64,000 nucleotides of DNA from Corynebacterium deserti GIMN1.010 (GTDB lineage: Bacteria > Actinomycetota > Actinomycetes > Mycobacteriales > Mycobacteriaceae): assembly GCF_001277995.1 (NCBI RefSeq), contig NZ_CP009220.1:434001-498000 (forward strand), written 5' to 3'. The position numbers and the translations under genes were made by a program. Position 1 is the first letter of the stretch. Every line of letters starts with the position of its first letter. The notes below the pieces were generated by a model that saw nothing but the letters and a program-made list of their open reading frames with translations, made no database searches and had not been told where the DNA came from. This document shows, piece after piece, positions 4,783-56,552 of the stretch.

Positions 4783-7056
4783 TTAGTTGCTCCTTGCTTG
4801 GAATCTGCGCAGGCGCAGGGAATTGGAGACGACAAACACGGAGCTGAATGCCATGGCAATGCCTGCGAGCATGGGGTTGAGGAGTCCGAGTGCGGCGACT
4901 GGGATTAGAGCAACATTGTAGGCGAAGGCCCAGAAGAGGTTGCCTTTGATGGTGCCGAGGGTTTTGCGGGAGAGTCGGATGGCGTCGACGGCGGAGCGGA
5001 GATCGTTGTTCATCAGGGTGATGTCGGAGGCTTCGATAGCGACGTCGGTGCCGGCTCCCATAGCGAGGCCGAGGTCGGCTTGGGCAAGGGCTGCTGCATC
5101 GTTGACGCCGTCGCCGACCATCGCGACGTTTTTGCCTTCTGCCTGCAGGGATGAGATTTTTGCGACTTTTTCGGCGGGGAGGACATCGGCGATGACGTGG
5201 TCAATTCCTACTTCCTTGGCGACGGCGTTTGCTGCGCCGAGGTTGTCGCCGGTGAGGAGGATGGGGGTGAGGCCGAGGTTTTTGAGTCCGGAGATGGCTT
5301 CGGCGGAGGTGTCTTTGATGGTGTCGCGGACGGTGATGACGCCGGAGTCGACGCCGTCGATGGTGACGACGACGGGGGTGCCTCCGATGGTTTGGGCGTG
5401 TTGGTAGGGGTGGAGGAGGGCGTCGATAAGCGTGTTTTGAGGCTTACCGACGCGGACCGTGTGTCCGCTGACCACGCCGGTAACGCCCTGGCCTGCCGTG
5501 TTTTGGAAGTTGGTGACCTCGGGGTGGTCGGTGGATCGTGCGATGGCTTGGGCGATGGGGTGTTCGGAGGCGGATTCGACGGCGGCGGCGAAGGCGAGGA
5601 TTTCCGCTGAGGAGTAGTTGATCGCGGTGACGTCGGTGACGGACATTGTGCCGGAGGTGACGGTGCCGGTTTTGTCGAGGACGATGGTGTCGACTTTTTT
5701 GGTTGATTCGAGGATTTCGGGGCCTTTGATGAGCAGGCCTAATTGTGCGCCGCGACCGGTGCCGACGAGGAGTGCCGTGGGTGTGGCCAGGCCAAGTGCG
5801 CAGGGGCAGGCGATGATGAGGACTGCGACGGCGGCGGTGAATGCGGGGGTGAGGCCGGCGTCGGTGAAGATGAGGTGGCCGATGAGGGTGAGGATCGCAA
5901 TGACGATGACGGCGGGGACGAAGATTTGGGAGATTTTGTCAACAAGTCGCTGGACAGGCGCCTTTTGGGATTGGGCATCGGTGACCAGTTTTGCCATTTG
6001 CGCAAGGGTCGTGTCGGCGCCGGTGCGGGTGACTTTCACGAGGAGGCGGCCGGAGGTGTTGAGCGTTGCGCCGGTGACTTTAGAGCCTTTGGTGGCTTCG
6101 ACGGGGATGGATTCGCCGGTGAGCATGGATTCGTCGATGGCGGAGGTGCCTTCGATGACCTCGCCGTCGGTGGCGATTTTTTCGCCGGGGCGGGTGACAA
6201 AAACGTCTCCGATTTTAAGCTGGCTCACAGGAATGCGGACTTCGGATCCGTCGCGAATCACAGCTGCATCCTTGGCGCCCATATCCAGGAGTTTGCGCAA
6301 CGCTTCCGATGATTGGCCTTTTGCTTTGGTTTCAAACCAGCGGCCAAGCAGCAGGAATGTGATGACAACTGCAACGGTCTCCAGATAGATTTCATCCATT
6401 GACGATGCTGTGGAAGTAGTGGGGAGCAGGTGCATTTCCATCGTCATGCCGGGGTGGCCAGCGTTGCCGATAAACAGCGCCCACAGTGACCAGAGGTATG
6501 CGGCGGTGGTGCCGAGCGATACGAGGGTGTCCATGGTGAAGGAGCCGTGCTTCAGGTTTGCCCAGGTAGCCTTATGAAACGGTGCGCCGCCCCAGAAGAA
6601 AATCGGGGTGACCATCGTGAGAACCGCCCACTGCCAGTTGGTGAATTGCAGGGCCGGAATCATGCTGAGCAGCACGACGGGAACGGTGAGCAGCGCGGAG
6701 ATTTGCACGCGGTGTTTGAGGTCGGCAGCCTCGGCGTCGCGGGCCGCGTCGATGCGGGATTGGCCTGTACCGGTTTCGGAAGAATCGGAAGAATCGGAAG
6801 ATTCGGGAACGGGGTCAGTTGAGTTGGCCATCGTAAATGCACCATAACCTGCACCTTCGACGGTTTTGATCAGCTTCTCCGTGTCCACTTTGGCGGGATC
6901 GTAACTCACCTGCGCCGACTCTGTGGCGTAGTTGACGGTTGCCTCAACTCCGTCGAGCTTGTTTAGTTTGCGCTCGACGCGGGCAGAACACGAGGTGCAC
7001 GTCATGCCTGTGACGCCGAGATCTACATTGATCAGATTGAGTGCTGGTTGAGTCAT
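4783..7056 (-). CDS. ctpA: Copper-exporting P1B-type ATPase
   Basis: This membrane pump exports Cu(I) from the cytoplasm at the cost of ATP. The 757-aa product has an N-terminal heavy-metal-associated domain (GMTCTSC, Cys20 and Cys23), about eight TM helices, the actuator motif DESMLTGES, the metal-site CPC in [11 protein letters not shown], the phosphorylation motif DKTGTVTSG and the hinge [10 protein letters not shown]. The frame is open upstream of 7056, but the ATG there has a good ribosome binding site (AAGGAG) and starts the conserved sequence. It is transcribed toward csoR with no gap, and a CsoR-type palindrome sits about 40 bp upstream. The name ctpA or copA can be used; Cu(I) specificity is inferred from CPC plus the csoR linkage. 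Confidence 0.95.
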
Positions 7057-7093
7057 TGAAACTCCTTCGGGGAAGTTGTTTATAACTTCACCG

Positions 7094-7112
7094 TATACCC
7101 CTATGGGGTATA
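7094..7112. promoter_or_regulatory. CsoR-type operator upstream of the copper ATPase gene
   Basis: Two 8-nt arms, TATACCCC and GGGGTATA, separated by TAT. The G/C-rich core flanked by A/T is the usual CsoR half-site pattern. The site overlaps the stop codon (7101-7103) of the upstream membrane-protein gene. Confidence 0.8.
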
Positions 7113-7577
7113 TTGCAAGGCTGCTTGCCGCTCCCAAGACGATGAAATTCCTGGGGTAAACCAGGCCAACACTGCCGCGATGACGGCCACGAGAGTAGGT
7201 CCCCACATGCCATCTACCAGCCAGAACGCCGTGAAACTTAACGTTGCGATCGCCACCCACACCGCTGGCACCACGAGATTTAGGCGCCGCGCGCTCAAGA
7301 TTTCCTGTTCAGCCCAGGGTTGGTGGGGGAACCGGGCCCTTGCTTCTCGACGAATCCTTCTTCCCGTTTTTCCTGCCGGAACTAACGTCGCAAACAGCAC
7401 AAGCGCAAGGCCTGCACCTGTTATTAGGAGATCTCCCGATGCTGCGCCAAAGGCTAAGGTTGCGACTGCCACGCTCATGGCGAGTCGCTCTCCGGCGGTG
7501 ATCGGGAGGGTGGAGGTTGGGTCGATATCGGGGTAAAGGTTGTCGAAGGCGGACTGGGTGGGGAGTGGTGAACTCAC
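7101..7577 (-). CDS. Small membrane protein upstream of the copper ATPase
   Basis: This 158-aa protein of unknown function has four predicted membrane segments arranged as two pairs (about 33-47, 50-67, 101-120 and 124-141), separated by a basic cytoplasmic loop ([14 protein letters not shown]). The start is a GTG at 7577 with AAAGG about 8 nt upstream. The first 28 residues are polar. It lies on the same strand just upstream of the copper ATPase, and its last codons are inside the CsoR operator, so CsoR binding may affect the end of this transcript. It is divergent from htaA. A copper role is suggested only by position. Confidence 0.7.
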
Positions 7578-7633
7578 GGGGCAGGCCTTTCGGGGGTAGT
7601 CAATCTTTTGGAGGGTTCTAGTTTGTAAATCGC

Positions 7634-7652
7634 TTAAGTTAGCATAGCCTTA
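7634..7652. promoter_or_regulatory. DtxR-type iron box upstream of htaA
   Basis: The 19-nt site TTAAGTTAGCATAGCCTTA matches the DtxR consensus TWAGGTWAGSCTWACCTWA at 16 of 19 positions by my alignment. It lies about 100 bp before the htaA start and is placed to repress the haem uptake genes when iron is plentiful. Confidence 0.75.
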
Positions 7653-7755
7653 ACTTATTTTGATTGTGAAGGATCTCTGCGAAATGCCCCCGAGCGGAGC
7701 GAGGGGGAGCGTCGACAAGCAATCTTTTATCGAACGTAAAGGATCTCCATTTGCC

Positions 7756-9603
7756 ATGAGCATCGCCTCAACCCCGTCTCGCCTGCGCTTTTCGCGCCGG
7801 GTCGCTGCCGCGTTCACAGCGACCGCATTGATATCCACCTTGGGAGCAGTTCCCGCAGCGCATGCTCAAACTGAGTATCGCACTGCCACGGGAGGGTCGC
7901 TTGTCTGGGGTTTTAAGCAATCTTTCCGGAACTATATTCAAACAGGTGTGGCAAAAGGATCGATTGAGCTCGGCGACGGCGCGCAGGATAGTGGTGGGAG
8001 CTTTGCGTTTAGCCCGCGTGAAAATGGGACCAGTGTGACCAGTGATTCAGAAGGCTCCGTGGCGTTTTCAGGTTCCGTTCACTTTGTCGGCCACCAAGCG
8101 CAGGGGCAGTGGATCCTCGACACCACGCTTTCTGACATTAAGCTGCTGATCAGTGGTTCGCAGGCGCAGATTCAGGCGGATTTGGTGGCTCGTGAATTTA
8201 AGGGCACGACGTATGACGACATCGGAGATTTTGTGATTTCCGACGACATCATCCTCGCCAACGTCTCTCTTAATAGCGCGGCGGACTTTTCGCAGGATTC
8301 CATAGATTTGTCCGGTACCACCACGTTGACCTCCGCCGGCGCTCAGGCATTCGGAGGGTTTTATGAATCCGGCGAAGTGCTTGACCCTACCGGGGGATCG
8401 CTCACGATCGCCTCGACAACCACCACCCCCACGACTGGAACTTCTACGACGACCACTTCGGGAACTGCATCCGCGGACTGTTCGTCAGGCGCGTTGGGCG
8501 TGATCACCACGGGCGACAGCGACGGCATTCTTGGCACACTTCAGGAGGTCAACAACACATTTGCGTTGTGGAATAACCTCATCGTTAACACGGAGCGGAT
8601 GTTTTGCAATGTGGATACGTTGAAGGCGCGGTTCAATGTGGACGACGGTGACAACGGCACTGACGGCACCGACGGCACAGGCACGGCCGCAAGCACTGTC
8701 GCAAGTACAGCGAGCACCGCAACGACCGCGACCTCCCCAACCACGGTGTCCACGGGAGCCGCAGGAACTACTACAACCCCATCAACTTCCGGAACAAGCA
8801 CCGGCACCGGAGGCACCACTCCCTCCGATACCGGTGTGTGCACTGCATCCGGCTCCCTCGGCGTGACCCAAGCAACCGCGCAATGGGGTGTGAAGGCATC
8901 GTTCCAAAACTACATCCGCGGATCGATCGCGAAGGGGCAGTGGACGCTGAACGGTGTGGGATTTGAGAATCAGCAGTTCCAATTCCAGGGCGCGAGTGGT
9001 GCGGTGGATGTGACGAATAAGTCGGGAAGCATTGTGTACCCCGGTTCGATTCACTTCACTGGGCACGATGGAATTTTGGACATGCAGATCTCTAACCTGG
9101 AGATTTCCTTCAGTGGGAATTCCGGCGAGCTGATTGCCGAGGTAGTCTCATCTGATATGGAAGGAAATTCAACCAACTACGGTCGCACTGTGGTGGGCAC
9201 CTTGAATTTCTCTTCGCTGACCGTCACTGATTCCCACGCGCAGGGCGCTGCGTCGGTCGCATTGTCGGAGGCCGGTTCCAAGGCATTCGCCGATTTCTAC
9301 ACTCCCGGCACCGCGCTTGATCCGATTTCTTTCAGTGCCACTCTCGGCGGCGCGTCTAACTGTGATTCCACAACCGCTGGACTTTCCCCGACGCAAGATG
9401 CCGGTGCGGTCACTGATGCGTCCGTGAACTCAGAGAGTGTCTCGGATCCTGCGGTGCAGGACAGTCAGTTCCAAATCCGCCAGGCAGGTTCTGATGCCAC
9501 CGGAATCGATACCACCACCACGCTGTTGCTCATCCTCGCGGCGTTCGTCGTCGCAGGCGGCTCCATGACCCGCTTCACCATCGCTCACCCGAGTGGAAAA
9601 TAA
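7756..9603 (+). CDS. htaA: Cell-surface haemin-binding protein with two HtaA domains
   Basis: HtaA captures haemin outside the cell and passes it on to HmuT. The 615-aa product has a signal peptide (cleavage near AHA-QT, residue 37), a first HtaA domain (about 45-215, with Y60 in FRNY and H109/H113 in GSVHFVGH), a Thr/Ser-rich linker (about 218-360), a second HtaA domain (about 365-530, with Y386 in FQNY and H433/H437 in GSIHFTGHD) and a C-terminal membrane helix (about 586-603). Tyr and His in these positions are the haem ligands of the family. ATG 7756 is chosen because it begins the signal peptide and has AAAGGA upstream. The frame is open to 7660, with a second SD-like AAGGATCTC there. 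First gene of the htaA-hmuTUV operon; DtxR box upstream. Confidence 0.93.
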   Translation: MSIASTPSRLRFSRRVAAAFTATALISTLGAVPAAHAQTEYRTATGGSLVWGFKQSFRNYIQTGVAKGSIELGDGAQDSGGSFAFSPRENGTSVTSDSEGSVAFSGSVHFVGHQAQGQWILDTTLSDIKLLISGSQAQIQADLVAREFKGTTYDDIGDFVISDDIILANVSLNSAADFSQDSIDLSGTTTLTSAGAQAFGGFYESGEVLDPTGGSLTIASTTTTPTTGTSTTTTSGTASADCSSGALGVITTGDSDGILGTLQEVNNTFALWNNLIVNTERMFCNVDTLKARFNVDDGDNGTDGTDGTGTAASTVASTASTATTATSPTTVSTGAAGTTTTPSTSGTSTGTGGTTPSDTGVCTASGSLGVTQATAQWGVKASFQNYIRGSIAKGQWTLNGVGFENQQFQFQGASGAVDVTNKSGSIVYPGSIHFTGHDGILDMQISNLEISFSGNSGELIAEVVSSDMEGNSTNYGRTVVGTLNFSSLTVTDSHAQGAASVALSEAGSKAFADFYTPGTALDPISFSATLGGASNCDSTTAGLSPTQDAGAVTDASVNSESVSDPAVQDSQFQIRQAGSDATGIDTTTTLLLILAAFVVAGGSMTRFTIAHPSGK

Positions 9604-9612
9604 AAGGCCCCC

Positions 9613-10698
9613 ATGTTTAACGCTTTTCGACGCCCCCTTGCCCTTGCACTCAGCGCCACCTTGGCCTTTACGGCCCTCACGGCCTGCGCGTCCTGGGACT
9701 CACCGTCTGGATCTACCAATGCAGAACTCATCGAAGAGATCCAATCCGAGGCCGGTTCCACCGACCCGCGCACCTTTACCGGCATGAGCTTGGTGGAAGA
9801 CATCGGTGATGTTGTTCCCGTTGCTGACAATCCCACCCCCAACCTGCCAGTGAGCCTCACTGACGCCGATGGTAACGACGTGACCATCACCGATGTCTCC
9901 CGCATTCTGCCTCTTGATCTCTATGGAACCTACTCCAAAACCATCGCTGGCCTGGGGCTGGTGGATAACATCGTTGGTCGAACGGTCAGTTCCACCGAAC
10001 CTGCGCTTGCCGACGCCGAAGTGGTCACAACCGGTGGGCATAACCTTAACGCCGAAGCCATTTTGAATCTCCACCCAAGCGTGGTGATCATCGATCACTC
10101 CATCGGCCCCCGCGAAGTCATCGAACAGATCCGCGCCGCTGGCATTCCTACGGTCACTATGTCGCCGAATCGCAGCATTGATTCCATTGGTGAGGACATC
10201 AAAGACATCGCAGCTGTCGTTGGCCTGCCCGAAGAAGGTGAAAAACTCGCCGAGCGATCCGTGGCAGAAGTGGAAGAAGCACGCACCGTGGTTCAAGACC
10301 TCGCTCCCGACGATCCCCTGAAGATGGTGTTCCTCTACGCGCGTGGAACGGGTGGTGTGTTCTTCATCCTGGGTGATGCCTATGGCGGACGTGACCTCAT
10401 CGAAGGCCTGGGAGGTGTCGACATGGCTGCCGAAAAAGGCATTATGGATCTTGCACCTGCAAATGCGGAAGCACTCGCGGAGCTTAATCCAGATGTTTTT
10501 GTCATGATGTCAGAAGGATTGGTTTCGACAGGTGGCATTGAAGGATTGATGCAGCGTCCTGGTATTGCTCAAACAACTGCGGGACAACACCAACGAGTGC
10601 TTGCTCTTCCTGATGGGCAGTCGTTGGCGTTTGGTGCGCAAACTGGTGAGTTGTTGCTTCGAGCATCCCGCGAATTGTATTTGCAGGGTGGTGAGTAG
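9613..10698 (+). CDS. hmuT: Haemin-binding lipoprotein of the HmuTUV importer
   Basis: HmuT is the substrate-binding protein that delivers haemin to HmuUV. The 361-aa product has a lipoprotein signal with Cys25 in LTACAS as the lipidated residue, followed by a low-complexity linker and a periplasmic-binding-protein fold of the BtuF/FhuD class (two lobes joined by a long helix). H143 in GGHNL and Y242 with R244 in FLYARG correspond to the axial His and Tyr/Arg haem-binding residues known for corynebacterial HmuT. It begins 9 bp after htaA, and its stop codon directly abuts the hmuU ATG. Confidence 0.94.
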   Translation: MFNAFRRPLALALSATLAFTALTACASWDSPSGSTNAELIEEIQSEAGSTDPRTFTGMSLVEDIGDVVPVADNPTPNLPVSLTDADGNDVTITDVSRILPLDLYGTYSKTIAGLGLVDNIVGRTVSSTEPALADAEVVTTGGHNLNAEAILNLHPSVVIIDHSIGPREVIEQIRAAGIPTVTMSPNRSIDSIGEDIKDIAAVVGLPEEGEKLAERSVAEVEEARTVVQDLAPDDPLKMVFLYARGTGGVFFILGDAYGGRDLIEGLGGVDMAAEKGIMDLAPANAEALAELNPDVFVMMSEGLVSTGGIEGLMQRPGIAQTTAGQHQRVLALPDGQSLAFGAQTGELLLRASRELYLQGGE

Positions 10699-11769
10699 AT
10701 GGTTGTGATGGAAAAAAGCGTCGAAAAGCACTCGTTGCGCCCGCAGGCGCTGGAAAAGCGCAGGTCGGTGCGGATCGCATTGTTTGTTGTGCTTGGCGTG
10801 GTGGTTGTGGCGGCGTCGCTGTGGTCGATTGTGGTTGGCCAATATACGATTCCGCTGCGTGATCTGCCAGGCATTTTGGCGGCTGGTCCGGCAGGTGCGG
10901 AAAGTATGGCTGAGCAGGTGGTATGGCAGATTCGTATGCCGCGCATCGTGTTGGGTTTGTTGGTGGGCGCGGCGCTGGGTGTCTCTGGCGCATTGTTGCA
11001 GGCGGTGTTTTCCAATCCGCTCGCGGAGCCGTCGATTATCGGCGTGACCTCGGGTGCGGGTGTTGGTGCTGCCGCGGTGATCGTTTTCAACATCACTATT
11101 TTTGGCACCTCGACTGTTGCTGTTGGTGCTTTTGTGACAGCAGTGATTACAACGGTGCTGGTGTACCAGTTGGCGAAAAGCCGTGGCCGTGTGCAGATCA
11201 TTAACCTCATTCTCACCGGTATCGCCATCAATGCCGTTTCTGGCGCGTTGACCTCCTTCTTTATTTATTTGGCGCCGACGAGCTCGCGCGAGGAGATTAT
11301 TTTCTGGCAGATGGGTTCGCTTAACGGCTCGCAATGGGCGCATGTCAATGTGGTATTCGTGCTGGTTGGCGTGGGATTTGTGCTGGCGCTGCTATTGAGT
11401 AAGCAACTCGATGTGCTGGCGCTTGGCGAAAGCGCTGCAGGTCACGTGGGTCTCAACGTCAAGCGGCTTCGACTTCTTGCCATCGCCGCCTCCACGCTAT
11501 TGACTGCCGGTGCCGTTGCCTACGCAGGATTGATTAGCTTTGTTGGATTGATCATTCCGCACCTGTTGCGCACGGTGACTGGCCCTGCCAACAAAATCCT
11601 CGTCCCCGCCTCTGCTCTTGCAGGCGCGGCGTTGATTAGCGTGTCCGACATCCTCGCGCGCACCCTGGTTCCTTATGCTGACCTGCCGATTGGCATTTTC
11701 ACAGCGCTGGTTGGCGGCCCGACGTTCTTTATTTTGCTGCGCCGGATGATGAAGAAAGGCACCCATTAA
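10699..11769 (+). CDS. hmuU: Haemin ABC transporter permease
   Basis: This is the membrane subunit that carries haemin across the inner membrane. The 356-aa product is a FecCD/BtuC-type permease with about ten TM helices. Typical motifs are PRIVLGLLVGAALGVSGALLQ near residue 80-100, NPLAEPSIIGVTSGAG, and FVGLIIPHLLR before the last helices, a region that contacts the ATPase. It starts immediately after the hmuT stop, and hmuV starts immediately after its own stop, so translation of the three is tightly linked. A second in-frame Met three codons on is a possible alternative start. Confidence 0.94.
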   Translation: MVVMEKSVEKHSLRPQALEKRRSVRIALFVVLGVVVVAASLWSIVVGQYTIPLRDLPGILAAGPAGAESMAEQVVWQIRMPRIVLGLLVGAALGVSGALLQAVFSNPLAEPSIIGVTSGAGVGAAAVIVFNITIFGTSTVAVGAFVTAVITTVLVYQLAKSRGRVQIINLILTGIAINAVSGALTSFFIYLAPTSSREEIIFWQMGSLNGSQWAHVNVVFVLVGVGFVLALLLSKQLDVLALGESAAGHVGLNVKRLRLLAIAASTLLTAGAVAYAGLISFVGLIIPHLLRTVTGPANKILVPASALAGAALISVSDILARTLVPYADLPIGIFTALVGGPTFFILLRRMMKKGTH

Positions 11770-12594
11770 ATGGATATGGTTTCAGTCAGCGGGCTCAGCG
11801 TCTCCATCGGGGGAAAAACGCTGCTTAACGACGTCTCCTTCACCGCCCGTTCGGGGGAAGTTCTCGGTCTGATTGGACCCAATGGTGCAGGTAAATCAAC
11901 CCTGCTCAGTGTCCTTTCTGGTGATCGTGAATGGGATTGCGGAACGGTGTCTGTTGGTGGTCTTGATCCTTCGCGCACGTCTGCGTCAGAGATGGCGCGT
12001 GTGCGTGCGGTCATGCTTCAAGATGTCAACGTGGCGTTTTCCTTCCTCGTGTGGGATGTCGTAGAGATGGGTCGGCGGCCGTGGGAAAAGCAGTCATCGC
12101 CTGAACAGGACAGGGCGATTATCGAGGCTTCGCTGGCTGCGACCTCGGTAACTCATTTGGCGGAACGGGAAATTACCACGTTGTCTGGCGGCGAAAAGGC
12201 GCGTGTGGCGTTGTCCCGAGTACTTGCCCAGCAAACACCCATCGTGCTGCTGGACGAGCCAACGGCGGCGATGGATATTAGCCATCAGGAACAAACGCTA
12301 GGTCTTGCTCGGGCTCTTGCGGCTTCTGGTGCTGCTGTGATTGTGGTGCTTCATGATCTCAATGCTGCCGCCGCCTATTGCGACAACATTGTTTGCCTTA
12401 GTGGTGGGCGAGTGGTTGCTCAGGGATCAGTGGATGAGGTGTATTCCTCCGAGACTCTGTCCAAGGTGTACGGATGGCCTATCAGAGTTGATTATAGTGG
12501 AAAATATGTTCGAGTATCACCCGATCGCTCCAACGTTTCCCTCCCGCAAAATCTGGGTCCAGTGCGGGCGGAAAATGCATCTTTACCTGCTTAG
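11770..12594 (+). CDS. hmuV: Haemin ABC transporter ATP-binding protein
   Basis: HmuV powers haemin import through HmuU. The 274-aa product has Walker A GPNGAGKST (from 36), Q-loop LQD, the signature LSGGEKARV (from 138), Walker B IVLLDEPTAA (from 158) and the switch His195 in VVLHDLN. Length and motifs are those of complete FecE/BtuD-class ATPases. It abuts hmuU. After its stop comes the separate promoter region of htaB with DtxR-type sites. Confidence 0.95.
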   Translation: MDMVSVSGLSVSIGGKTLLNDVSFTARSGEVLGLIGPNGAGKSTLLSVLSGDREWDCGTVSVGGLDPSRTSASEMARVRAVMLQDVNVAFSFLVWDVVEMGRRPWEKQSSPEQDRAIIEASLAATSVTHLAEREITTLSGGEKARVALSRVLAQQTPIVLLDEPTAAMDISHQEQTLGLARALAASGAAVIVVLHDLNAAAAYCDNIVCLSGGRVVAQGSVDEVYSSETLSKVYGWPIRVDYSGKYVRVSPDRSNVSLPQNLGPVRAENASLPA

Positions 12595-50340: not shown

Positions 50341-51369
50341 ATGTCTGCGATGAACGCATCATCTGATTATTCTCACGCACTTGTCCGCCGCCCTCGTCGT
50401 TTGCGCAGTAACCCTGCCATGCGGGAGATGGTGGCAGAAACCGCACTTCGGCCAGCAGATTTCATCCTGCCAATGTTTTATGCAGATGGAATCAATGAGG
50501 CCCGAGAGATTTCATCGATGCCTGGTGTTTTCCAGCACACCGAAGATTCGCTGCTGCGCGCAGCCCACGAAGCCCTTGAAGTTGGTGTGCGCTGCGTGGA
50601 TCTTTTCGGGGTGCCAGTCGATGCGGACAAGGACGCCACCGGGTCACAGGCATGGGCTGAGGAAGGCATCCTTAACCGTGGAGTGGCAGCATTGCGCCAA
50701 GAATTCGGCGATGACCTGCTGATTATGGCCGATACCTGCCTGGATGAGTTCACCGATCACGGACACTGCGGTGTGGTCACTGAGGATCGCCACGGCAACG
50801 CCATCGTGGACAATGACGCCACGCTGCCTCTCTACCAGCAGATGGCTGTTGCTCAGGCTCGCGCCGGTGCACACATTGTGAGCCCCTCCGGAATGATGGA
50901 CGGCCAGATTGCAGCCATCCGCGCAGCTCTGGATGAGGAAGGCTTTGAAGACGTCGCCATCATGGCGTACTCCGCAAAGTATGCTTCCGCATTCTTTGGT
51001 CCTTTCCGCGAAGCCGTAGGTTCCTCCCTTCAAGGCGATCGACGCACCTACCAGCAAGACCCTGCCAACCTGCGGGAATCCCTCCTGGAAGCGGAACTCG
51101 ATATCGCCGAGGGTGCAGACTTCATCATGGTGAAGCCAGCGCTGCCGTATCTCGATGTACTCACCCGCATCGCTGATACCTCACCAGTTCCCGTCGCCGC
51201 CTACCAAGTATCTGGCGAGTACGCGATGATTCAAGCCGCTGGCCGCAATGGCTGGGTTGATCTTGATGCTGTCATGATGGAATCACTGACCTCCATCAAG
51301 CGTGCCGGCGCTAATCAGATTCTCACCTATTTTGCTGTCGATGCCGCCAAAGCTCTGCGCAATGCTTAA
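50341..51369 (+). CDS. hemB: Delta-aminolevulinic acid dehydratase (porphobilinogen synthase)
   Basis: HemB condenses two 5-aminolevulinate molecules to porphobilinogen. The 342-aa product has the N-terminal [16 protein letters not shown], the metal-site region [14 protein letters not shown], the first Schiff-base Lys in [16 protein letters not shown] and the second in [14 protein letters not shown]. The presence of Cys-x-Asp and Cys in that region differs from the all-Cys zinc site and suggests a Mg-dependent type. ATG 50341 is used; an ATG three codons on is possible. Two membrane-protein genes follow in the same direction. Confidence 0.95.
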
Positions 51370-52053: not shown

Positions 52054-52563
52054 ATGCCCAGCATGTTTCCATCGCCCGCATCCGGCGGAGACGACCTCAA
52101 CCGCCGCCGCCTTGGACCCTCGGCTGATGAAAACATCATCCCCACCGCCCTTCGCGTGGTGTTTTGGATGCTCTTCGTCACCGCAGCATTTATGATTTTC
52201 ACCGGCATGGTCATGTACACCGCTGGATACACCGGACCTGACGATGTGGATCAAGCGTTTAAAGACACTGTGGTGAACAACCAGAAATTCATCGGTGGCA
52301 TCAACGCGTTTGCGGGCATTGTGATCGCTGCTCTGACTTCTCAGCTACCCCGTGGCGGCAAAACTCCTCGCAGGGTGCTGCTCGCCATTTTGCTGCTCGT
52401 TGTGCTTGTTGATCTGCTGTCTTTCGCCACGCAAGCAGGTGGATTCGCACTCGCCCTCATCGCTGTGGTTGTTGCTCTGGAAGCGCTCATCCTTTTCCGG
52501 CCAAGTATCAATAGCCATATTGAGCGCAATCACATGGCGCGGGTGATGAACCCAGATAAATAG
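52054..52563 (+). CDS. Membrane protein downstream of hemB (second of two)
   Basis: The 169-aa product has a polar N-terminus (MPSMFPSPASGGDDLNRRRL) and four membrane helices (about 29-52, 79-92, 103-122 and 126-148). Function is unknown; it appears paired with the preceding gene. The C-terminal codons and stop fall inside the first unit of a 13-bp tandem repeat, so the C-terminus may have been changed by slippage. ATG 52054 has AAAGAG upstream. Confidence 0.78.
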   Translation: MPSMFPSPASGGDDLNRRRLGPSADENIIPTALRVVFWMLFVTAAFMIFTGMVMYTAGYTGPDDVDQAFKDTVVNNQKFIGGINAFAGIVIAALTSQLPRGGKTPRRVLLAILLLVVLVDLLSFATQAGGFALALIAVVVALEALILFRPSINSHIERNHMARVMNPDK

Positions 52564-52600
52564 CCCAGATAAATAGCCCAGATAAATAGCCCAGAGAAAT
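52551..52600 (+). repeat. 13-bp tandem repeat (CCCAGATAAATAG, 3.8 copies)
   Basis: Exact units at 52551-52563, 52564-52576 and 52577-52589, then a partial diverged unit CCCAGAGAAAT. The first unit encodes the last codons and the TAG stop of the membrane protein gene. Copy number could vary between strains. Confidence 0.9.
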
Positions 52601-52728: not shown

Positions 52729-55362
52729 GTGAGCAGACCCGAGCCATCCTCGGTGGACAAGGCCGTTGGCGCAGCCATTTCGGAAGCCAGGTCCGCCGCG
52801 TTGAAAGCAGGCGTGGGGCTCCACCGACCTGTTGATGAGGAAGAGGACTCACAACAATCTGGCATCAAGGTCTCTCTCAGTTTTGAGCTGGAGGGCCTGG
52901 ACAATGCGCCGTCGCTGATGGCGGTGGAAAGAGCCCTCGAGCATATCCCTGGGGTGTCGGCAACCTTGATTTATCCGACACAAACGGCGTGGATTACTGC
53001 GACGGAAAAGATCGATCTCGACACCATCATTGGTGTTTTTGAACGTTTTGGCATTCGAGCGTATCTTTCCAATTCGTCGCTGATGCGTCGGCACCAGCAG
53101 CTCAGCGCGGAAATCAGTCGTGAAGCCCGCGTCGAGCGCTACCAATTTCGTCGGGCGTCGAAACGCATGTCGCCGCGCGTGCGGCGGCATAATCGGGAAG
53201 AGATGATGCAAGCACTTCGCGCCCGCGAAAGTGGCTGGATTAAAAGAAAAAAGAAAACAACAACGCTTAACGACGACGCCATGTCCGGCGATGTCCTCTT
53301 CACCGCCCGCGCTCTCATCACCCCCATGCGCTTTTGGGTGTGTCTCCCATTCGCCCTTGTTGTCGTGTTGTTGTCTTTTAACCCTTCGTTGCAATTCGAC
53401 TATTGGCAGTGGCTGTCTGCGCTGTTGAGTATTCCTGTGGTGATGTGGGGTGCTTGGCCGTTTCACCGCGCGGCAGCTGGTGGTATTCGTCGAGGAATTT
53501 CCGCCCTTGATGCGACAAGCTCGGTTGCGATTGCAGCGGCCTATCTGTGGTCGCTAGCTATGTTGTTTTTTGAAACACCCGGTAACAAATCATGGCGGTC
53601 TTATCCGGCCTGGTTTGCTTTTGACCACGGCACGCTGACCCAAAACGAAATCTACTTTGATGTAGCCTGTGGCATCACTGTGCTGCTTCTTGCCGGCCGG
53701 TTGCTGACACGTAAGCGCAGCCAATCCAGCCTGTTGGCGGAACTTGATCGTCTCCAAATCGATCCTCACCAGGTGGTCACTGTGGTGCGTAAACACCGTG
53801 CAACCCGCAAAGTGATCGAACTCAACATCCCCATCATGGAGGTGCGCGTCAACGACGACATCATGATTCCACCCGGCACGATCATCCCCGTGGATGGTGT
53901 GGTCATTGGTGGTGGCTCGAGCATCGCGGCGAGCATCATCATGGGCCAGGACAATCACGACGTCAAAGTAAATGACAAAGTTTTTGCCGGCAGCTTGAAC
54001 ATCACGGAAGAGATCAAAGTTCGTGTCATTCGCACCGGCCACCGCACCCGCATCGCAGCTGTCCACCGCTGGGTGAAGGAAGCAACCGTCAAAGAAAACC
54101 GCCACAACCGCGCGGCCATTCACTCAGCTGGAACCCTTGTGCCCATCACCTTCACGTTGGCTGTGGTGAACTTCTGCCTGTGGGCGCTGATCTCTGGGAA
54201 CATCAACGCGGCGTTTACCACTGCGCTTGCAGTGTTGGCCTGTGTGGCTCCCGTGGCGTTGGCGTTGTCAGCACCGCTGGCCACTAGGAACTCTGTGGAA
54301 GCGGCAGCCCGTCACGGCATTCTCGTTCGATCGGGTGAAATCCTTCGCGTGCTTGATGATGTCGATACCGTTGTGTTCAACCGCCTGGGTACCTTGACCG
54401 ACGGTGAAATGACTGTGGAAACTGTCACCGCAGATAAGGGTGAAGATCCAGAACTCGTGCTGCGCGTGGCTGGCGCACTTGCCATGGAATCTAACCACTC
54501 CATCTCCAAGGCCCTGGTGAAGGCATCCCGTGAAGCCCGTGACTCCGGTACTGGCGGTGAGGATGTTCCACACTGGATCGATGTGGGCGCTGTGGAAATT
54601 ACAGAAGAAGGTGCTTTCCAAGCAAAGATCGAACTTCCCTACATCAACTCCTCCGGTGAGAAATCGATGCGCACGGTTGATGCGTTGCTGTGGCGACCTC
54701 GTTCAATGTCGGAAGTCCGCGAGCACCTCAGCCCCCGCCTCATCGCAGCTGCCACCTCAGGTGGTGCACCCTTGATTATCCGGTGGAAAGGCAAAGACCG
54801 CGGTGTGATCACGCTTAACGATCACGTGCGCCCCGATGCCGCTGAGGCAGTTTCAGCACTGGAGGATCAAGGCATTGAGACGATGATGCTGTCGCGGGAT
54901 ACGTATCCAGTTGCTCGTCGCTACGCAGACAACCTTGGTATCACCCATGTCTTGGCCGGCATCGCGCCGGGCAAAAAGCCCCACGTCGTCCGCTCCGTGC
55001 ATACCCGCGGCTCAACGGTTGCCATGGTCGGCGACGGATCGGTGCTTGACAGTATGAAAGTTGCCGACGTGGGCATTTTGATGGGTGTGAACAGCCACTC
55101 GGAGCTTCGCGACGATACCGATGATCCTGCAGCCGACGTTGTGGTGCTTCGCGACGAAGTTGCCAGCGTGCCTTTCCTTTTCCGATTGGCTCGCCGCTAC
55201 GTCAAACTCGTCAACGGAAATATCGCCCTGTCATGGATCTATAACGGTGTGGCCATGGTTCTTGCGATTTCCGGCCTGCTGCACCCCATGGCGGCAACCG
55301 TTGCAATGCTCGCATCATCGCTGATCATTGAGTGGCGCTCTGGCCGGGCGCGCCGATTTTAG
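52729..55362 (+). CDS. P-type-ATPase-like protein lacking the catalytic Asp (pseudo-ATPase)
   Basis: The 877-aa product has the P1B layout (N-terminal ferredoxin-like domain, about eight TMs, actuator, P and N domains), but every key motif is altered. The N-terminal domain (about 48-112) lacks the Cys-x2-Cys metal site (LEGLDNAPSLMAVER). The TGES actuator motif is replaced by IIMGQD near 403-408. The membrane CPC reads CVA at 505-507. DKTGT reads NRLGT with Asn551 for the phosphorylated Asp. GDGxND reads GDGSVLD near 768-774. The frame is intact and long, so the gene is maintained. GTG 52729 has AAGAAGG upstream. It lies between hemB-linked membrane proteins and hemE. It is not expected to pump ions; a structural, regulatory or haem-related role is possible. 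Confidence 0.85.
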   Translation: MSRPEPSSVDKAVGAAISEARSAALKAGVGLHRPVDEEEDSQQSGIKVSLSFELEGLDNAPSLMAVERALEHIPGVSATLIYPTQTAWITATEKIDLDTIIGVFERFGIRAYLSNSSLMRRHQQLSAEISREARVERYQFRRASKRMSPRVRRHNREEMMQALRARESGWIKRKKKTTTLNDDAMSGDVLFTARALITPMRFWVCLPFALVVVLLSFNPSLQFDYWQWLSALLSIPVVMWGAWPFHRAAAGGIRRGISALDATSSVAIAAAYLWSLAMLFFETPGNKSWRSYPAWFAFDHGTLTQNEIYFDVACGITVLLLAGRLLTRKRSQSSLLAELDRLQIDPHQVVTVVRKHRATRKVIELNIPIMEVRVNDDIMIPPGTIIPVDGVVIGGGSSIAASIIMGQDNHDVKVNDKVFAGSLNITEEIKVRVIRTGHRTRIAAVHRWVKEATVKENRHNRAAIHSAGTLVPITFTLAVVNFCLWALISGNINAAFTTALAVLACVAPVALALSAPLATRNSVEAAARHGILVRSGEILRVLDDVDTVVFNRLGTLTDGEMTVETVTADKGEDPELVLRVAGALAMESNHSISKALVKASREARDSGTGGEDVPHWIDVGAVEITEEGAFQAKIELPYINSSGEKSMRTVDALLWRPRSMSEVREHLSPRLIAAATSGGAPLIIRWKGKDRGVITLNDHVRPDAAEAVSALEDQGIETMMLSRDTYPVARRYADNLGITHVLAGIAPGKKPHVVRSVHTRGSTVAMVGDGSVLDSMKVADVGILMGVNSHSELRDDTDDPAADVVVLRDEVASVPFLFRLARRYVKLVNGNIALSWIYNGVAMVLAISGLLHPMAATVAMLASSLIIEWRSGRARRF

Positions 55363-55475
55363 GCAGTTTTTAGGCTGTTATTAAGACGAGCCTCAACCCT
55401 TTTATTGATGTGTGCTTCCTCAATTAGGTGTGGCTTCTTTTCCTAAAACGATGTGAATGGGGCAAGATTGAGCCC

Positions 55476-56552
55476 ATGTCTGCAACAATCATTCCAGCTG
55501 CGCGCCGCACGCTGAACAATGCTCCCATCATTGATGCCGCGACCGGCAAAACCCCGACCCGCACTCCGGTGTGGTTTATGCGCCAGGCAGGACGTTCGCT
55601 GCCTGAGTACAAGAAGGTTCGTGAGGGCATCAGCATGCTGGATTCCTGCTTCATGCCGGAGCTGCTTGCAGAAATCACCCTGCAGCCTGTCCGACGCCAT
55701 GACGTTGATGCTGCGATTTTGTTCTCAGACATTGTTGTTCCGCTGCGCGCTGCAGGCGTGGGGGTAGAGATCGTTCCAGGTCGCGGCCCAGTGCTGGATG
55801 CGCCAATCCGCAGCCGTGAGGACGTTTCAAACCTGCCCATTCTGGAAGGAAATGTTCCGGAAATTGAGCAGGGCATTTCCATCATTTTGGATGAGCTCAC
55901 CGATTCCCAGGCACTTATTGGTTTCGCAGGTGCACCATTTACCCTGGCCAGCTACCTCGTTGAGGGGGGTCCTTCAAAGAATCATGAGAAGACCAAAGCC
56001 ATGATGCACGGTGATCCTGACACCTGGCACGCCCTCATGCAGCGTTTGGTCCCAACGGTGGTGAACTCCCTGAAATCCCAGATCGATGCCGGCATTGATG
56101 CCATGCAGCTTTTCGATTCTTGGGCAGGCTTCCTTACCGAACGTGACTACACCGAATTCGTGCTTCCGTATTCCACCCAGATCCTCTCTGAGATCGAGCA
56201 GTACCAGATTCCTCGTATCCACTTCGGTGTGGGTACCGGCGAGATCCTCGGCGCTATGTCTAAGGCAGGTTCAGATGTGATGGGCGTGGATTGGCGCGTT
56301 CCCTTGGATAAGGCCGCTGAACGGATTCACGCAGCATCTGGTCCTAAGGTTCTCCAGGGCAACCTCGATCCCGCACTGTTGTTCGCTGGAACGGCACCGC
56401 TGACACGTGAGATCGAGCGCATCAAGGCCGAAGCCCAAGCAGCGATTTCTGCAGGTCACGCAACAGGACACATCTTCAACCTCGGCCATGGAGTGTTGCC
56501 TAATACAGTGGCAGAAGACATCACCGAAGCTGTCGCCATCATCCACCAATAA
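55476..56552 (+). CDS. hemE: Uroporphyrinogen decarboxylase
   Basis: HemE decarboxylates uroporphyrinogen III to coproporphyrinogen III. The 358-aa product has the N-terminal signature TPVWFMRQAGRSLPEY, the catalytic Asp in ILFSDIVVPLRAAGVGVE, GFAGAPFTLASYLVEGG and the C-terminal HIFNLGHGVLPNT. ATG 55476 is used rather than the upstream open frame, since AAGATT lies 6 nt upstream as a possible -10 box and homology begins here. hemG/hemY follows after 31 bp. Confidence 0.95.
   Translation: MSATIIPAARRTLNNAPIIDAATGKTPTRTPVWFMRQAGRSLPEYKKVREGISMLDSCFMPELLAEITLQPVRRHDVDAAILFSDIVVPLRAAGVGVEIVPGRGPVLDAPIRSREDVSNLPILEGNVPEIEQGISIILDELTDSQALIGFAGAPFTLASYLVEGGPSKNHEKTKAMMHGDPDTWHALMQRLVPTVVNSLKSQIDAGIDAMQLFDSWAGFLTERDYTEFVLPYSTQILSEIEQYQIPRIHFGVGTGEILGAMSKAGSDVMGVDWRVPLDKAAERIHAASGPKVLQGNLDPALLFAGTAPLTREIERIKAEAQAAISAGHATGHIFNLGHGVLPNTVAEDITEAVAIIHQ

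Follow-up and report, generated by a model that had tools for sequence, protein, structure and literature searches.

A P1B-type pseudo-pump predicted across Corynebacterium in the haem gene cluster

The window analysed here, a 64,000-nucleotide stretch of the Corynebacterium deserti GIMN1.010 genome (contig NZ_CP009220.1, positions 434,001 to 498,000, forward strand), carries among its haem biosynthesis genes an intact gene for a P1B-type ATPase homologue in which the phosphorylated aspartate is replaced by asparagine. Its assignment, from sequence, as a genus-wide P1B pseudo-pump is well supported: most Corynebacterium species examined keep a complete pump-like protein without the pumping machinery, probably for some other job. 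A single aspartate defines the P-type ATPases, a textbook enzyme family. If most of a genus has kept the whole pump fold under selection but without that residue, the fold would have a second, non-catalytic use in bacteria. To our knowledge, no bacterial family of P-type ATPase pseudoenzymes has been characterised. Annotation can easily label such genes as cation-transporting ATPases. The question can be put to a direct test in C. glutamicum, a workhorse of the laboratory and a host for haem production.

Gene, domains and predicted fold

The pseudo-pump gene encodes 877 residues with no internal stop (Table 1). A preceding sequence-only reading of the window had described an intact 877-codon frame with P1B architecture, which the open frame and domain matches bear out. 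The heavy-metal P1B model TIGR01525 matches at 316.7 bits, under its cut-off of 346.25, and TIGR01494 at 135.3 bits, over its cut-off of 62.3; Pfam, TIGR01494 and a structural match at Z 33.4 assign the protein a P1B membrane core bearing the A, P and N domains, as in members of the P1B fold superfamily. An AlphaFold2 model built with 51 orthologues has a mean pLDDT of 87 and a pTM of 0.72, and among solved structures it lies closest to the copper pump 7r0g_A (Z 33.4, rmsd 3.1, 619 residues, 26% identity), followed by ATP7B mutant structures at Z 29.4 and 27.9. A profile search also matches the protein to LpCopA (3rfu) at 4.1e-84. The predicted full P1B fold and the CopA match suggest that the pump fold is intact while its chemistry is gone.

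Upstream of the gene, a 13-bp tandem repeat, CCCAGATAAATAG, occupies 52551-52600 (3.8 copies, 97% match), spanning the TMb stop codon and lying just before the pseudo-pump gene. A promoter scan found two candidates against 2.4 expected.

Table 1. Coordinates of the pseudo-pump gene, its protein segments and its neighbours in the window
Feature	Position	Strand	Remarks
Pseudo-P1B-ATPase gene	52729..55362	+	GTG start, AAGAAGG ~10 nt upstream; Pfam E1-E2_ATPase 96.7 bits, Hydrolase 57.3 bits
HMA-like domain, residues 45-114, without CxxC pair	52861..53070	+	DNAPS where active pumps have TCxSC; modelled strands and helices mixed
Basic helical linker, residues 115-185	53071..53283	+	Poor conservation, mean 0.32
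DVACGI, codons 311-316, including Cys314	53659..53676	+	From alignment of 51 orthologues with 30 DKTGT pumps
IIMGQD, codons 403-408	53935..53952	+	A-domain loop; replaces MLTGES
APV, codons 507-509	54247..54255	+	At the CPC metal site; Pro508 kept
Codons 551-553, Asn551-Arg552 for Asp-Lys of DKTGT	54379..54387	+	Invariant among orthologues
Trp-Arg-Pro, codons 655-657	54691..54699	+	Trp655 for the Gly found in 97% of DKTGT pumps
DGSVLD, codons 769-774	55033..55050	+	Asp769 kept; Asn-Asp of GDGxND lost, one-residue gap
hemB (ALAD), upstream flank	50341..51369	+	460.7 bits
TMa, small membrane protein, 198 aa	51402..51998	+	No Pfam match over cut-off
TMb, small membrane protein, 169 aa	52054..52563	+	No Pfam match over cut-off
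hemE (URO-D), downstream flank	55428..56552	+	391.4 bits; true start may be further in

Loss and replacement of the pump motifs

The pseudo-pump was aligned with 30 P1B pumps chosen by their DKTGT motif, of which 28 are distinct, 26 carry TGE[SP] and three more carry SGES. Asn551, within FNRLGT, occupies the column of the phosphorylated Asp, as the sequence-only reading had proposed, and Arg552 takes the place of the Lys. That reading had also given CVA as the replacement for CPC; the loss of CPC stands, but the replacement was placed two columns off, since ACVAPVALA of the pseudo-pump aligns with IIACPCALG of the pumps and the site is really A507-P508-V509. TGES, GDGxND and the N-terminal Cys pair are missing from the window protein, again as described, the TGES loop reading MGQD. 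An active comparison is available in the copper ATPase on the minus strand of the same window, which retains DKTGT, CPC, TGES, GDGVND and MTCTSC; its earlier use for this purpose holds, but its frame runs from a GTG over 4783-7260, the previously proposed boundary at 7056 being an internal Met. Near the copper ATPase, positions 7660-12594 hold a gene for a secreted two-repeat protein followed by ABC-uptake-like genes for a binding protein, a permease and an ATPase, presumably resembling the haem-uptake cluster htaA/hmuTUV.

Changes extend to the nucleotide site. The ATP-site motif of the window protein is SNHS, and [ED]SxHP is matched by 68 of 100 orthologues. Pump positions conserved at 90% or more and changed in the pseudo-pump include E585, G627, G629 and G655 (now Trp), columns that we take to correspond to the ATP7B contacts Glu1064, Gly1099, Gly1101 and Gly1149, with full agreement in order and partial agreement in spacing; the region of codons 655-657 is likewise assumed, from ATP7B and CopA work, to belong to the ATP pocket. 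Other parts of the pump residue set remain. His590, presumably the counterpart of ATP7B His1069, is nearly invariant and kept in most orthologues, the HAD core residues K750, D724 and D769 and the Ser/Thr of HAD motif II are present, and YN and MxxSS of the last two helices persist in most orthologues. The A-domain loop has TGES or TGEP in 0 of 100 orthologues (such strings occur elsewhere in the proteins of loci L093 and L109), and TGE followed by another residue in four (L031, L033, L034 and L093), perhaps as a remnant of an active pump. This partial set (H590, K750, D724, D769, YN, MxxSS and the occasional TGE) leaves room for residual ligand binding. A pumping cycle that dispenses with the usual aspartate could draw on the kept motif II Ser/Thr, Lys750, Asp724 and Asp769 and on the four TGE loops, but it is scarcely credible given that the phosphoacceptor, TGES and the second motif-IV Asp are gone, along with four of five presumed ATP contacts (E, G, G and G at columns 585, 627, 629 and 655).

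Relative to active pumps, the orthologues have gained invariant residues of their own: N551, R552, W655, R723 and C314. Cys314 is invariant in 51 aligned orthologues and absent from that column in the 30 DKTGT pumps; one turn separates it from the preceding Asp311 column, which holds Glu in the pumps, and by analogy with CopA work it presumably sits near the former metal entry. A rebuilt site of Asp311 and Cys314 with the Tyr-Asn and Met-Ser-Ser groups could make the protein a sensor or chaperone for copper or another metal, relaying a signal or the metal itself without ATP. The invariant Cys314 and the mostly kept YN and MxxSS agree with such a role, as does the 3.6- to 4.6-fold copper induction of hemL, cg0519, cg0520 and ccsA in C. 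glutamicum, with ccsB listed alongside, in a table portion of PMC3140484. The pseudo-pump gene itself is not in that portion of the table, however, and none of 100 distinct orthologue proteins retains CPC or the HMA CxxC, which makes a metal sensor or chaperone unlikely.

Fixation and spread in the genus

An orthologue is present in 185 of 242 Corynebacterium genomes, 177 of them found by plain search (E 2.9e-175 or better) and eight by profile, the window's own genome included. The 65 genomes re-searched by profile divide across a wide score gap, at least 635 bits versus at most 422 bits. In two positives, G190 and G236, the assembly is incomplete and the match partial; among the 57 negative genomes, 54 reach at least 90% completeness and three fall below.

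The substitution at the catalytic site is fixed. FNRxG[T/A] occurs in 124/124 orthologue loci (100 distinct proteins, with some genomes repeated) selected on alignment score regardless of motif, as FNRxGT in 80 of the distinct proteins and FNRxGA in 20, while all 12 lower-scoring loci of the same 136-locus extraction are DKTGT pumps. Because the loci were picked by score, a shared motif of this kind is far beyond chance. The aligned orthologues thus have the Asn throughout and none of those examined has DKTGT, the finding that would have spoken against the sequence-only reading; a change confined to one strain is ruled out by the same fixation. In a set chosen by motif, which like the score-based set holds 100 distinct proteins, CPC, GDGxND and an MxCxxC in the first 130 residues are each found in 0 of 100.

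Outside Corynebacterium, no orthologue is apparent among the best matches. In a family search of 201 genomes, none of the 185 from outside the genus scored over 411 bits and the seven best all have DKTGT. In a plasmid collection with 103 matching records, two hits that cover most of the query, from Nonomuraea and Arthrobacter, are DKTGT, CPC pumps. A tree of orthologues and active pumps joins the orthologues in one clade (0.938) with no clear active parent.

Purifying selection

The pseudo-pump has dN/dS values of 0.021 to 0.190 over 18 close pairs that partly overlap, the purifying selection that the sequence-only reading had proposed to look for; the haem enzymes span 0.015-0.201 in the same pairs and are alike in most. 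Constraint on the pseudo-pump is 2- to 5-fold weaker than on hemB in some pairs, as in L093-L108 (0.190 vs 0.038). All but one of the 61 named copies have a frame of at least 790 residues, so frameshift decay in relatives, the other outcome that would have told against that reading, does not apply. The exception, at 6001-8339 of locus L111 (C. wankanglinii), is broken into two frames, whether by error or by decay. Taken with the fixed Asn, these ratios give good support to the earlier proposal of selection for a non-pumping role.

The same two results, dN/dS of 0.02-0.19 and one Asn at every locus, rule out pseudogene decay. They bear on decay only, and a related possibility combines it with another: a slowly decaying pseudogene, or a role unrelated to haem whose synteny is kept by inertia. 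Absences at some five points of the haem-gene tree and the one split copy are in keeping with that pair of options, which is nevertheless, as a whole, somewhat unlikely. Elsewhere in the window's genome, another P1B-type paralogue (C1:2305729-2307267) has a TAG stop inside its matched frame.

Haem-cluster context and a role between HemB and HemE

The gene lies among haem genes on the same strand at 61/61 named loci, which bears on the synteny check with hemB and hemE suggested in the sequence-only reading. Within these stretches, hemD was detected at 60, hemB at 59, TMa at 53, hemY at 53, hemE at 51, hemL at 49 and TMb at 32, counts to be read with the caveat that some stretches are cut by contig ends and divergent TMa and TMb may be missed. 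In C. glutamicum ATCC 13032 the orthologue is the gene preceding hemE (cg0516) and, judged by order, probably cg0515. According to a passage of PMC7337898, the region directly before hemE in C. glutamicum carries a binding site for HrrA, a position suggesting that hemE probably has its own transcript start.

Such a fixed place invites the view, put forward in the sequence-only reading, of a scaffold or sensor for the enzymes HemB to HemE, or of porphyrin handling between them. The distribution of the genes argues against it from two directions. First, hemB and hemL are both matched in every one of the 57 genomes that lack the orthologue (the hemB matches of G123 and G195 each with one in-frame TAG), and seven orthologue queries at E up to 1e-4 found no pseudo-pump remnant in the haem-cluster stretch of the 20 negatives that were fetched. 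In the 11 fetched negatives with TMb, no more than 0.9 kb separates it from the start of the hemE match. On the haem-gene tree the 20 absences are spread over about five positions, which suggests repeated loss; this tree holds 79 of 82 loci (three having too little coverage) and is midpoint-rooted without an outgroup, so that the number of losses is approximate. TMa is found in 17 and TMb in 11 of these 20 genomes, and their frequent presence without the pseudo-pump indicates that neither depends on it; dependence of TMa or TMb on the pseudo-pump is accordingly not supported. Four loci without the pseudo-pump (L171, L177, L180 and L183) have about 10 to 14 kb between hemY and hemL.

Second, the pseudo-pump persists where these enzymes are not detected. 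C. tuscaniense (G223, locus L110) and Corynebacterium sp. MSK041 (G186, locus L095) give neither a hemB match at E 1e-5 nor a hemE (URO-D) match at 0.001; their assemblies are rated 99-100% complete. A third genome, G111, has hemB but no URO-D match; all three keep an open pseudo-pump frame. COX1 oxidase is found in all three far over the cut-off, in a search whose control was imperfect because C. glutamicum, known to have an aa3 oxidase, gave no signal. The two hemB-less loci retain the order hemD-TMa-TMb-pseudo-pump-hemY, with hemY shortened, and between them omega is 0.064 for the pseudo-pump, 0.090 for TMa, 0.094 for TMb, 0.115 for hemY and 0.041 for hemD. Constraint on hemD without hemB would be odd if no tetrapyrrole were made, so haem auxotrophy of this pair is not certain and some tetrapyrrole role there is possible. 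Even so, a gene missing from 57 genomes that all have hemB and hemL, and kept under constraint in a hemB-less pair, is hard to reconcile with scaffolding, sensing or porphyrin handling between HemB and HemE, and a role of this kind is distinctly unlikely.

Proposed role of the pseudo-pump

The preferred reading, to which a rough probability of 0.35 is given, is that the pseudo-pump is a membrane adaptor that works by binding alone and acts on how respiratory cytochromes are supplied with haem or metal. It should not form an aspartyl-phosphate intermediate, and the usual binding of nucleotide and of copper is probably lost. It would instead remain in one pump-like conformation and, without pumping, serve through binding as an adaptor or regulator in the membrane that plausibly contacts TMa and TMb, with Cys314 and Asp311 as the best candidate ligand site. 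This supply, with haem from synthesis or from uptake, would be its most likely target, in preference to the hemB-hemE enzymes. Against the adaptor reading, its cytochrome link comes from COX1 in the three pseudo-pump-bearing genomes described above, and 57 of the 242 genomes do without the pseudo-pump. A more elaborate version, in which a copper-pump fold was recruited early in Corynebacterium to form a platform with TMa and TMb that hands made or imported haem, or copper, to cytochrome bc1-aa3, is a tentative idea and probably goes too far; if true, it would make this group the earliest bacterial family of P-type pseudo-ATPases to be tied to a defined pathway.

Comparison with known systems

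Among the open-access papers listed by text searches, titles and the starts of abstracts gave no description of the pseudo-pump group, and a search by locus tag gave only DNA-methylation work among the 20 of 132 matches listed. The group may have been listed earlier among TCDB's uncharacterised P-type families, of which FUPA 24 is treated in a passage of PMC3573892. In the CopA pumps (7r0g, 3rfu and 3j09) and human ATP7B (7xun), the fold over residues ~183-877, the domain order and the membrane helices are like those of the pseudo-pump, but the latter is without DKTGT, TGES, GDGxND, CPC and the HMA CxxC, and it has Trp655 in place of the N-domain Gly together with the invariant Cys314, Arg552 and Arg723.

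A parallel in kind is offered by pseudoenzymes as a class (PMC5106787, PMC10211241), for example pseudokinases. As in those proteins, an intact fold goes with a fixed catalytic loss and purifying selection, and both the orthologue sequences and the structural model of the pseudo-pump have the features that mark a pseudoenzyme, namely catalytic residues lost with fold and selection kept across species. KdpB of KdpFABC, to which the model matches at Z 23.1 (7lc3_B), may serve as an analogy for a P-type ATPase fold working in complex with membrane subunits. KdpB is catalytically competent, which the pseudo-pump is predicted not to be.
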